A stretch of 64,000 bases of DNA from Devosia sp. (GTDB taxonomy: Bacteria > Pseudomonadota > Alphaproteobacteria > Rhizobiales > Devosiaceae). The position numbers were made by a program, and so were the translations under genes. Below the pieces are notes generated by a model that saw only the letters and a list, made by a program, of their open reading frames with translations, was not told the origin of the DNA and did no database searches. This document shows positions 2,164-43,139 of this stretch, piece by piece. The stretch is taken from positions 992,001 to 1,056,000 of the forward strand of contig NZ_JAGIAW010000001.1 of assembly GCF_017744655.1 (NCBI RefSeq), in the 5' to 3' direction. Positions within the stretch are counted from its first letter, which is position 1. Each line of letters begins with the position of its first letter.

Positions 2164-5100
2164 CTAATTGAACCGGACGTCGGTGATCCCATCAAGCGCC
2201 TTAATACCGCCGGCGACTTCGGCGCTGACGGAATACTTGCCGGGAAGTTCGATTTCATACTCGCGGGCGCCGGCGTCGCGGATCACCACGAAACTCACCG
2301 TGCCATTGCCGCCGCGCTTCAATTGCGCGCTTACGGGCCCGAGGGCTTTCTCGCTCGCGGTGAAAATGGTGAGGCGGCGGTCGATGCTTTCTGCCAACCC
2401 TTCGATGGGCTTGGCGCCGTTGAGCATAAGGCTGATGCCTTCCGCGCGCTCTTGGGCGCCGACTTCGAGGATGACCGAATTGCCCGGCTGCAAAATCGCG
2501 CCGAACTGGGTGATCTGTTCGGAAAAGGCGATGACTTCAAAGGTGCCGCTCTGATCCGAAAGGCTCAGGATCATCATCGGCGTACCTTTACGCGTACGCC
2601 TGTCGTTACGCGACGAGATGGTTCCGGCCATACGGCCCGCGGAAGCGCCGTCCTTCACCGCGCGCTCAAAATCGCTCCAGCGCTGGACGCGGAGGCGCTC
2701 GAAGAGGTCGGAATAAGCATCGAGCGGGTGCGCCGATAGATGGAAGCCGATGGCCGAGAGTTCACGGTCGGCTCGCTCGGTGGAATTCCAGGCTGGGACG
2801 CTTGTGGGCAGGCGGAATGGTTCAGGTTCACTCGAGGCGAACATGTTCCACTGGCCTTCGTTGCGCTCCGTGGTCAGGGCCTGGGCTGTGCCCACAACCT
2901 GGTCCATAGCGGCGAAGGCAATTTCGCGACGTTCAACCAGCGCGTCGAAGGCGCCGGCATTGACGAGGGTTTCGAGCGTACGCTTGTTGATGGCCTTGGG
3001 ATCGACGCGGCGGGCAAAGTCGCCAAGATCCTTGAACGGCTTGTCGCCACGGACTTCGACGATGTGCTCAGCAACGGCGCGGCCGACACCCTTCACGGCG
3101 GAGAGGCCGTAGTGGATGCGGTCATTCTTCACCGAGAACACGACTTCCGAGGCATTCACACAGGGCGGAACGACTTCGATCTTCTTCTTGCCAGCCTCGC
3201 GGCGGAAATCCGAGAGCTTGTCGGTCTGCGCCATATCGAGCGTCATCGAGGCCGCATAGAATTCATGCGGGAAATGCTGCTTGAGATAGGCTGTCTGGTA
3301 GGACACCCACGCGTAAGCAGCGGCGTGGCTCTTGTTGAAACCGTAGTTCGCGAATTTTGCCAGAAGATCGAAAATTTGGTCGGCCAAGGCCTCGCTGACG
3401 CCCTGCGGGCCGGAACCCTCGCGGAAGCGGACGCGCTGATTGTCCATTTCCGCCTTGATCTTCTTACCCATAGCGCGACGGAGCATGTCGGCTTCGCCGA
3501 GCGAATAGCCCGACAGAAGCTGGGCGATCTGCATCACCTGCTCCTGATAGACAATGATGCCATAGGTTTCGTCGAGCACTTCGCTCAGCTTGGGGTGGGG
3601 ATATTCCACCTCCTCGCGGCCATGCTTACGATCGATGAAGCTTGGAATATTGTCCATCGGACCAGGCCGATAGAGCGCGTTCATAGCGATGAGATCTTCG
3701 ATGCGGTCGGGCTTGAGATCCATCAAGGCCCGGCGCATGCCGCCACTTTCAAACTGGAAGATGCCGTAGGTATCGCCACGGGCGTAGAGATTGTAGGTCG
3801 CTGCGTCGTCGATGGGGATGGTGTCGATGTCGATTTCAACGCCGCGCTTGCGCACCATCTCGACGGCGTACTGGATCGTCGTCAGCGTCTTGAGACCGAG
3901 GAAGTCGAATTTGACGAGGCCGGCGGGCTCAACCCATTTCAGGTTGTATTGCGTCACCGGCATTTCGGAGCGCGGATCGCGGTAGAGCGGCAGCAGTTCC
4001 TGCAGCGGGCGATCGCCGATCACGATGCCGGCGGCGTGCGTCGACGCGTGGCGGAACAGGCCTTCGAGGGACTTGGCAATTTCGACGAGCTGGCCGACGG
4101 TTTCGTCTTCTTCGGCCATCTGCTTGAACTGCGGCACCTCGTTCATGGTGCGCTCGATGGTCCAGGGATCCGCTGGGTTGGCGGGCACGAGCTTACAGAT
4201 GCGGTCGACCTGCCCGTAAGGCATCTGCAGCACTCGACCGACGTCGCGCAGCACGGCGCGCGCCTGGAGCGAACCGAAGGTGATGATCTGCGCCACCTGC
4301 TCGGCGCCATACTTCTTCTGCACGTATTCGATGACTTCTTCACGCCGGTCCTGGCAGAAGTCGATATCGAAGTCGGGCATCGAAACGCGCTCAGGATTGA
4401 GGAAGCGTTCGAACAGCAGATTGTAGCGTAGCGGATCGAGGTCGGTGATGGTCGTGGCATAGGCCACAAGCGAGCCGGCACCGGAACCGCGGCCCGGCCC
4501 CACTGGGATGCCCTGCGCCTTGGCCCATTGGATAAAGTCGGCCACGATGAGGAAGTAGCCGGGGAATTTCATCTTCTCGATGACGTTCAGCTCGAAATCG
4601 AGCCGCTCGCGATATTCCTGTTCGGTCTTGCCGGGCCCCGGACCGTGGGCGGCGAGACGGGCATTCAGACCGGTAACCGAAATCTCACGCAAGGCCGCAG
4701 CTTCGGCGGCAACGACGGCCTCTTCGGTATCGTGCGAGCCGGCGGCGAATTTTGGCAGGATGGGACCACGCGTGCGCGGGCGGTAGGCGACCCGGCGGGC
4801 AATCTCGATGGTAGAATCGAGTGCTTCGGGAATATCGGCAAAAAGCTCGATCATCTCCGCGCGGGTCTTGAAATAATACTGGTCGTTGAGTTTTCGACGT
4901 TCGGTCTGGGCCAGCACTGAGCTGCCGGCAATGGCCAGCAGGGCGTCGTGCGCCTCATATTCCTTGGCGGATTTGAAGAAGGGCTCGTTGGTGGCGACCA
5001 GCGGGATACCCTTGCGATAGGCATAATCGATCAGGCGCGGCTCGACGGTGACTTCCTGCGCGCGGCCATGGCGCTGCAACTCGATATAGAAGCGGTCGCC

Positions 5101-5619
5101 GAAGAGGTCGGCCAAGCGATCGAGGCGGCGGACGGCATTGGCGTCCTGCCCGTGGGCGAAGGGCATGTCGATGGCGCCTTCCGGGCCACCGGAGAGGCAA
5201 ATCATGCCGGCGAGGGAATCGGGTGTCAGCCAATCGAGCTTGGCGCGCGCCAGCCCGTTTTCACCCTGCATATAGGCGCGGGAAACAAGGCGCGAGAGAT
5301 TGGCAAAGCCCTCTTCGGACTGGGCCATCATGACGACACTGGATTTTCCGTTCCAAGCAACGTGGCCGCGTTCGCTGACGCGCTCTTCGGCGGCGGCAAA
5401 ATCGATGGCGAGTTCGACACCGATCAGCGGCTGGATGCCCTTCTTCGTCGCCTTTTCGGAGAATTCCAGGGCGCCAAAGAGATTGGCCGTGTCGGCCAGA
5501 CCAAGCGCCGGCTGAGCGTCGGCGGCGGCGAGTTTGAGAATCGACTCGAGCTGAACAGCACCCTCAAGGAGCGAGAAAGCCGAGTGAACGTGTAGATGGA
5601 TAAAGCCGGGGCCGCGCAT
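2164..5619 (-). CDS. dnaE: DNA polymerase III alpha subunit
   Basis: 1151 aa; PHP N-terminus FIHLHVHSAFSLLEGA, PGRGSGAGSLVAYA, PDFDIDFCQDRREEVI. Confidence 0.97.
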   Translation of the reverse strand: MRGPGFIHLHVHSAFSLLEGAVQLESILKLAAADAQPALGLADTANLFGALEFSEKATKKGIQPLIGVELAIDFAAAEERVSERGHVAWNGKSSVVMMAQSEEGFANLSRLVSRAYMQGENGLARAKLDWLTPDSLAGMICLSGGPEGAIDMPFAHGQDANAVRRLDRLADLFGDRFYIELQRHGRAQEVTVEPRLIDYAYRKGIPLVATNEPFFKSAKEYEAHDALLAIAGSSVLAQTERRKLNDQYYFKTRAEMIELFADIPEALDSTIEIARRVAYRPRTRGPILPKFAAGSHDTEEAVVAAEAAALREISVTGLNARLAAHGPGPGKTEQEYRERLDFELNVIEKMKFPGYFLIVADFIQWAKAQGIPVGPGRGSGAGSLVAYATTITDLDPLRYNLLFERFLNPERVSMPDFDIDFCQDRREEVIEYVQKKYGAEQVAQIITFGSLQARAVLRDVGRVLQMPYGQVDRICKLVPANPADPWTIERTMNEVPQFKQMAEEDETVGQLVEIAKSLEGLFRHASTHAAGIVIGDRPLQELLPLYRDPRSEMPVTQYNLKWVEPAGLVKFDFLGLKTLTTIQYAVEMVRKRGVEIDIDTIPIDDAATYNLYARGDTYGIFQFESGGMRRALMDLKPDRIEDLIAMNALYRPGPMDNIPSFIDRKHGREEVEYPHPKLSEVLDETYGIIVYQEQVMQIAQLLSGYSLGEADMLRRAMGKKIKAEMDNQRVRFREGSGPQGVSEALADQIFDLLAKFANYGFNKSHAAAYAWVSYQTAYLKQHFPHEFYAASMTLDMAQTDKLSDFRREAGKKKIEVVPPCVNASEVVFSVKNDRIHYGLSAVKGVGRAVAEHIVEVRGDKPFKDLGDFARRVDPKAINKRTLETLVNAGAFDALVERREIAFAAMDQVVGTAQALTTERNEGQWNMFASSEPEPFRLPTSVPAWNSTERADRELSAIGFHLSAHPLDAYSDLFERLRVQRWSDFERAVKDGASAGRMAGTISSRNDRRTRKGTPMMILSLSDQSGTFEVIAFSEQITQFGAILQPGNSVILEVGAQERAEGISLMLNGAKPIEGLAESIDRRLTIFTASEKALGPVSAQLKRGGNGTVSFVVIRDAGAREYEIELPGKYSVSAEVAGGIKALDGITDVRFN

Positions 5620-5692
5620 ATTGGTCTCCTGAAAGGAGTCTTAGCCTGTCGGGGCGCGAGGTCAAATCACCCTGCCCCCAATCCACAGGCGA

Positions 5693-5791
5693 TCAGGCCA
5701 AATGCGTCAGCAGGTCCATCCAGGTCAACGAACCAATGGTGAAGGCACCGAGGGTCACGAAGGCGGCGAAGTCCTTGAGGAAATCAATCAT
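5693..5791 (-). CDS. Unannotated 32-aa hydrophobic peptide MIDFLKDFAAFVTLGAFTIGSLTWMDLLTHLA
   Basis: Translated by hand; ATG preceded by GGGAG Shine-Dalgarno; not in ORF track (too short); predicted single membrane helix. Confidence 0.6.
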   Translation of the reverse strand: MIDFLKDFAAFVTLGAFTIGSLTWMDLLTHLA

Positions 5792-5818
5792 CTCTAGCTC
5801 CCGTGTTGCTATAATGTT

Positions 5819-5847
5819 CTTATATGTTTTCTCTTTGTTCTGGTCTA
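5819..5847 (-). promoter_or_regulatory. Putative promoter with LexA-like box in the spacer (GAAC-AAAGAGA-AAAC)
   Basis: -35 TAGACC (5847-5842), 17-nt spacer containing GTTT-N7-GTTC (5826-5840 on +), -10 TATAAG (5824-5819). Confidence 0.45.
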
Positions 5848-6077: not shown

Positions 6078-6764
6078 TCAGAGGCTGTGCGGTACGACCT
6101 TGCCGTCCCTGATGGTGACGATGCGGTCGGCACGTTTGGCGAGGTCGTGATTGTGGGTCGCGATGAGGGCAGCGGCGCCTTCGGTGCGGATCAAGCCCTG
6201 CAGGGCTGCGAAAACCAGATCGCTGGTGCCGGGATCGAGATTGCCGGTGGGCTCGTCGGCCAGGATCACGCGGGGGTGGTTGGCGGCGGCCCGGGCGATG
6301 GCGACGCGCTGCTGTTCGCCGCCCGAGAGTTCTGCCGGACGGTGGGTGGCGCGAGGGGCGACGCCGAGTATGTCGAGGAGTTCCATGGCGCGGACGTTTG
6401 CTTCCGCGGGTGATTTGCCGGCGATCAGTTGCGGCATGGTTACGTTTTCGAGCGCGGTGAATTCGGGCAGCAGGTGGTGGAACTGGTAGACATAGCCCAC
6501 CGTGTTGCGGCGCAATTGGGTGCGACCGCGGTCGCTCAATTTGCTGGTCTTGTTGCCGACGATTTCGACCTCGCCTTCCTGCGGACTTTCGAGAAGACCG
6601 CAGAGATGCAGCAGGGTCGACTTGCCGGCGCCTGAGGGGGCAACGAGGGCGACGAGTTCGCCACTTTCGACGACGAGATCGGCCTGGTCGAGCACGCGAA
6701 CCTTGGTTGCGCCTTCGCCATAGTGACGATGGACGCCGGAGAGACGCAGATAGGAATTACTCAT
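6078..6764 (-). CDS. lolD: Lipoprotein-releasing ABC transporter ATP-binding protein
   Basis: Walker [26 protein letters not shown] signature; overlaps lolC-family permease. Confidence 0.93.
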
Positions 6765-42825: not shown

Positions 42826-43124
42826 ATTTTGCCCCTTGGCCCCCGTCGGCGTCGCAAGCGAACGGCAGGCTTAGTTGGTTGGCCCACGCCCCTGCCCCGA
42901 ACGCGCACATGGCAAGGCAGAGAAACGCAGGTGAAATTCGAATCGGCGCGACTGGCCGATTGCAGCTATGCCGCCTTAACGGGCGGTAAAGGCACAAATA
43001 GGCGGCAATGGGGCCGGCTTCAATAGAGCGTCGCCAATGCAATGACACTAAGGTGAATGCCGCGTTTGGGATGTTCACAACTCCAGCCGGCCGGCTCCGT
43101 CAGATTTAATTCACGGTTGATAAT

Positions 43125-43139
43125 GTTCTTGTTCTGTTC
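43125..43139 (+). promoter_or_regulatory. Perfect alphaproteobacterial LexA-type box GTTC-N7-GTTC
   Basis: GTTCTTGTTCTGTTC, 32 bp upstream of ATG at 43172. Confidence 0.45.

Follow-up and report, generated by a model that had tools for sequence, protein, structure and literature searches.

A conserved membrane peptide gene with a LexA box upstream of dnaE in Devosia, a candidate SidA-type division inhibitor

Upstream of dnaE in a Devosia sp., a short unannotated open reading frame raises the question whether a peptide is made from it and, if so, whether that peptide serves the SOS response or the regulation of dnaE. An earlier note on this DNA, a stretch of 64,000 nucleotides (the window), had proposed either a small membrane protein or division inhibitor induced in the SOS response, or a dnaE leader peptide. 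The elements it relied on, namely the 32-amino-acid ORF, the GGGAG ribosome binding site, the promoter hexamers and the box, were all located correctly to the base. The ORF (5693..5791, minus strand) is read from 5791 to 5693 and its product is MIDFLKDFAAFVTLGAFTIGSLTWMDLLTHLA. It is preceded by the ribosome binding site GGGAG (5798..5802, minus strand), which is kept as GGGAG or AGGAG across the genus. Downstream lies dnaE (2164..5619, minus strand), encoding the replicative DNA polymerase III alpha subunit and recognised by Pfam PF07733, PF17657, PF02811 and PF14579. The upstream neighbour is a lolD-like ABC transporter ATPase gene (6078..6764, minus strand; Pfam PF00005).

The ORF is short, and Pfam and NCBIfam searches with the 32-residue peptide gave no match, as would be expected of an open frame that arose by chance inside the dnaE promoter region. 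However, a protein search returned one peptide match (66-100% identity) in each of the 37 genus genomes that were searched first, and a profile search recovered the peptide in 127 of 136 family genomes, representing 13 of 16 genera, so that the conservation on which the proposal of a gene depended was found. A Ka/Ks near 1 would have spoken against a gene; in 48 distinct genus sequences the pooled pN/pS of the peptide frame was 0.215 and the median dN/dS 0.13. In the same set, pN/pS was 1.15 in the +1 and 3.75 in the +2 control frame, and on this difference the chance frame was rejected. Diversity at the three codon positions of the ORF was 0.149, 0.050 and 0.353. Together with the conserved box, start codon and ribosome binding site and the detection of held-out peptides by a profile (see below), these values leave a chance ORF next to no probability. 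By these comparisons, the ORF is a real, unannotated gene under strong purifying selection. The amino-acid sequence is selected along the whole helix. The peptide has a hydrophobic core, and AlphaFold predicted one helix comprising residues 2-31 (pLDDT 93.7), which fits the expectation for a membrane peptide, insertion itself being a prediction.

In the promoter, the −35 element TAGACC (5842..5847, minus strand) and the −10 element TATAAG (5819..5824, minus strand), the latter assigned by sequence and genus comparison, are separated by a 17-nt spacer filled by GAAC-AAAGAGA-AAAC, exactly as the earlier note had parsed it. The −35 reads TGGAC or TAGAC in the genus and TTGAC in other families, and was not called by a simple sigma-70 scan. 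The LexA box GAACAAAGAGAAAAC (5826..5840, minus strand) lies between the two hexamers and deviates from GAAC-N7-GAAC by one mismatch in its second half-site, giving GAAC-N7-AAAC. A third GAAC half-site (5816..5819, minus strand) overlaps the −10 and is conserved in the genus. A one-mismatch site within about 60 nt is in itself not significant, and the comparison with relatives is decisive. Among 59 genus loci, in which some genomes are represented twice, the box is an exact GAAC-N7-GAAC in 44 and has one mismatch in the other 15, always at the same place 47-50 nt before the start codon, which bears out its description as LexA-like. In relatives, GAACAAAnnnnGAAC and then TATAAGAAC make up the spacer.

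We also scored the window with a LexA weight matrix made from 40 relatives' sites, the clade of the window being excluded. The box upstream of the peptide reached 23.7 bits, the top value among all positions in the 64 kb, followed by 22.8 bits (around 43124) and 12.3 bits. In the organism's own genome, GAACANAN4GAACA matched 17 times and the reversed control 0 times, and one of the boxes lies 61 nt upstream of a lexA match (counted from the lexA domain start), which validates the motif in this genome. Other boxes precede ssb-, dinB- and dnaE2-like ORFs, as judged by reading translations by eye rather than by profile search. The LexA boxes of Caulobacter share this form, GTTC-N7-GTTC (PMC12700426). 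On sequence grounds, LexA control of the peptide promoter is well supported and very likely. Separately, the second-best box of the window (43124-43139, minus strand) was found with a clpP-like ORF some 300 nt downstream of it, and the genome carries three DNA polymerase III alpha genes (C6, C8 and C11), with a LexA box before the C11 copy.

The location of the peptide gene, on the strand of dnaE and 73 nt upstream of it in the window (about 35 nt in Caulobacter), would also suit a leader peptide that regulates dnaE, either by being translated or through its LexA-controlled promoter. A simple promoter and terminator scan of the peptide-dnaE region found nothing; read-through is likely because no terminator was detected between the two genes. 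However, among relatives the gap to dnaE ranges from tens to about 500 nt instead of being short and fixed, and the constant linkage of an attenuation leader was not found either. In family f23 the peptide gene has moved away from dnaE, and exact LexA boxes after TTGAC were present in four of the five relocated loci read (L408-L411), the box of the fifth (L413) being near-exact. At another locus (L168), the gene is inverted upstream of dnaE and its LexA boxes are inverted along with it. Since relocated copies keep the box, we regard the peptide gene as an independent member of the SOS response and not as a dnaE leader.

Moreover, dnaE has a conserved upstream element of its own. The DnaA-box-like sequence CTGTGGATTG (5679..5688, minus strand) belongs to the dnaE upstream region and not to the peptide gene: its TGTGGA is present in 43 of 43 distinct genus gaps, 57-75 nt upstream of dnaE, a position that it also keeps where insertions have moved the peptide gene further off. 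From this sequence, dnaE may be under DnaA control. A putative separate dnaE promoter (5638..5665, minus strand) consists of TTGACC (5660-5665), 16 nt and TAAGAC (5638-5643); TTTGAC is kept in part of the genus and the scan did not confirm the promoter. The variable gap, the TGTGGA element tied to dnaE, the relocated and inverted copies with their boxes and the selection on residues over the entire helix all speak against the leader peptide that had been offered as the alternative. We rejected it as the main function and consider it very improbable. As a side observation, about 22 of 106 other members of the class had TGTGGAT in either orientation close to dnaE, compared to 5 in a control window.

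How far does this gene extend? A profile made from the genus alone gave sub-threshold matches beyond the family, several of which were real by context, lying before dnaE with an exact box. We searched for dnaE directly and examined the DNA ahead of it in about 190 genomes; the order, probably Hyphomicrobiales, is in all counts the grouping used by the genome search tool. A forward box was found within 600 nt in 50 of 87 dnaE upstream regions of the order, compared to 8 reverse boxes and about 1 expected. In most cases TTGAC stands just before the box, and an ORF of 27-50 amino acids with one hydrophobic helix follows it. Using a profile of these ORFs, the peptide was detected in 57 of 91 dnaE upstream regions, and the sole match on the reverse strand was the inverted copy described above. 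Because many of these ORFs had also served to train the profile, peptides held out of the training are the more telling test: once redundancy had been filtered at 60%, 36 of 41 such peptides scored above every one of their own shuffles. The conserved peptide pattern of the order is [KRQE][DE]xxA...F...W. In a genome-wide search, a family peptide was found in 169 of 298 genomes and 67 of 117 genera of the order, and about one third of the order's genomes have no recognisable copy beside dnaE. Outside the order, 14 of 106 dnaE regions harbour a forward box, nearly always followed by a similar ORF, and these include the family of Caulobacter. The order profile gave just a few weak matches over the rest of the class, and the reach beyond the order is therefore judged from locus and box.

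SidA, the SOS-induced division inhibitor with which the peptide had been compared, is known to us from Caulobacter only, and no extension beyond Caulobacter was found in the literature searched. It is a 29-amino-acid inner-membrane protein acting on FtsW (PMC4211646). In Caulobacter vibrioides DSM 9893 (L334), we found a 29-residue membrane peptide directly before dnaE, with GAAC-N7-GAAC ahead of it. The published locus tags are CCNA_02004 for sidA (PMC10769358) and CC1926 for dnaE (PMC1839093). As recN is both CC1983 and CCNA_02062, the two numberings are offset by 79, which aligns CCNA_02004 with the CC1926 numbering and makes sidA and dnaE neighbours. By its length, its position and these tags, the L334 peptide is identified as SidA.

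An order profile made without any Caulobacter sequence scored this SidA at 23.9 bits, compared to 11.7 bits for the best of 500 shuffles; when Devosiaceae were left out as well, the values were 19.2 and 13.2 bits. Profile-profile alignment with hhalign gave a probability of 92.7% and an E of 4e-7 over 28 ungapped columns, in which the core [KR][DE]xxxL/A...S/T...F is shared. The reverse-strand control did not exceed 8 bits except for the inverted copy. When inspected, all hydrophobic-ORF decoys that scored higher proved to be family members that had gone unrecognised, lying ahead of dnaE except for one that was a few kb off and beside a box. The window peptide itself reached 2.2 bits with a Caulobacteraceae-only profile, a score matched by 26 of 1000 shuffles and not significant, so that its kinship to SidA is at the level of the family and not pairwise. 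Homology of the peptide family to SidA is thus detectable in sequence profiles at family level only. The earlier note had claimed no homology to SidA, which in view of the shared locus, control site and profile similarity was too cautious. Like SidA (CCNA_02004 in Caulobacter crescentus; PMC4211646, PMC10769358), the window peptide is a small single-helix peptide of about 30 residues, encoded directly upstream of dnaE behind a promoter with, at sequence level, a GAAC-N7-GAAC-type LexA box. It differs by its low direct identity, by the absence of residues typical of SidA, among them FVWMM, and by the 73-nt gap to dnaE that holds the DnaA-box-like element.

At sequence level, the SidA locus, the control site and the profile similarity support the earlier proposal of a small membrane protein or division inhibitor induced by SOS, and do so more strongly than the note had claimed. 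By analogy, the ORF probably encodes the SidA-type SOS-induced inner-membrane division inhibitor of this organism, and we think it probable that division would be inhibited through the septal synthase (FtsW/FtsI/FtsN). In undamaged cells, LexA would occupy the box in the spacer and block RNA polymerase. Upon DNA damage, RecA-driven cleavage of LexA would free the promoter, and the peptide would be translated from a transcript whose leader is short and whose ribosome binding site is strong. As a single helix it would be inserted into the inner membrane, where, as for SidA, it would keep the septal-wall machinery of FtsW, FtsI and FtsN from working, and so arrest division, until the damage has been repaired. 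Among the known suppressors of SidA are ftsW(F145L) and ftsW(A246T). SidA binds FtsW and is suppressed by ftsW mutations, and the authors of the SidA/DidA study proposed that under SidA the FtsW/FtsI/FtsN complex is kept inactive (PMC4211646).

Alternatively, an SOS membrane peptide of the same family could have another target or role, for example DinQ/TisB-like depolarisation or action on another envelope enzyme, the FtsW link then being specific to the Caulobacter lineage. The sequence is just distantly related to SidA, and the [KRQE][DE]xxA...F...W pattern of the order differs from the FVWMM pattern of Caulobacteraceae, as this alternative would allow. DinQ and TisB of E. coli are toxins controlled by antisense RNA, whereas neither an antisense RNA nor a toxin-antitoxin layout was seen at the peptide locus. 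They are SOS-induced single-TM inner-membrane peptides, as is predicted for the window peptide, and have other functions (cf. PMC3567139). Against such a role stand the locus and promoter design shared with SidA and the profile homology to it, and we consider it unlikely.

The SidA-type reading can also be set beside division inhibitors of other kinds. In Gram-positive bacteria, YneA and SosA are larger proteins and are linked to another LexA motif. Both YneA (Bacillus subtilis, PMC13396833) and SosA (Staphylococcus aureus, PMC6851548) are SOS-induced single-TM division inhibitors, and YneA also acts through FtsW; the analogy is one of function and no homology is claimed. DidA of Caulobacter crescentus is likewise a small inner-membrane division inhibitor that acts on the FtsW/FtsI/FtsN complex, but it is SOS-independent and binds FtsN (PMC4211646). 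It is likened here by function.

SOS division inhibitors are small, evolve fast and are usually overlooked by annotation. We consider it fairly likely that the order has a widespread, largely unannotated SOS division checkpoint, in which one ancestral dnaE-linked membrane-peptide family, with SidA as a diverged branch, would supply most of the order with the SulA equivalent that it lacks. Should this view of the family hold, the family would provide division-checkpoint candidates for a large order, to which, by the taxonomy of the earlier note, root symbionts as well as pathogens of plants and animals belong. The linkage between the peptide gene and dnaE would then appear ancient, and a deep alignment could be used to map how a helix of 30 residues stops FtsW. 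Variant forms of the family were observed as well. Extra copies without an exact LexA box lie away from dnaE at three loci (L414, L415 and L416), and in family f10 (L417-L421) the helix forms the C-terminus of a frame of about 90-110 amino acids, which may be a fusion or have a wrongly assigned start.
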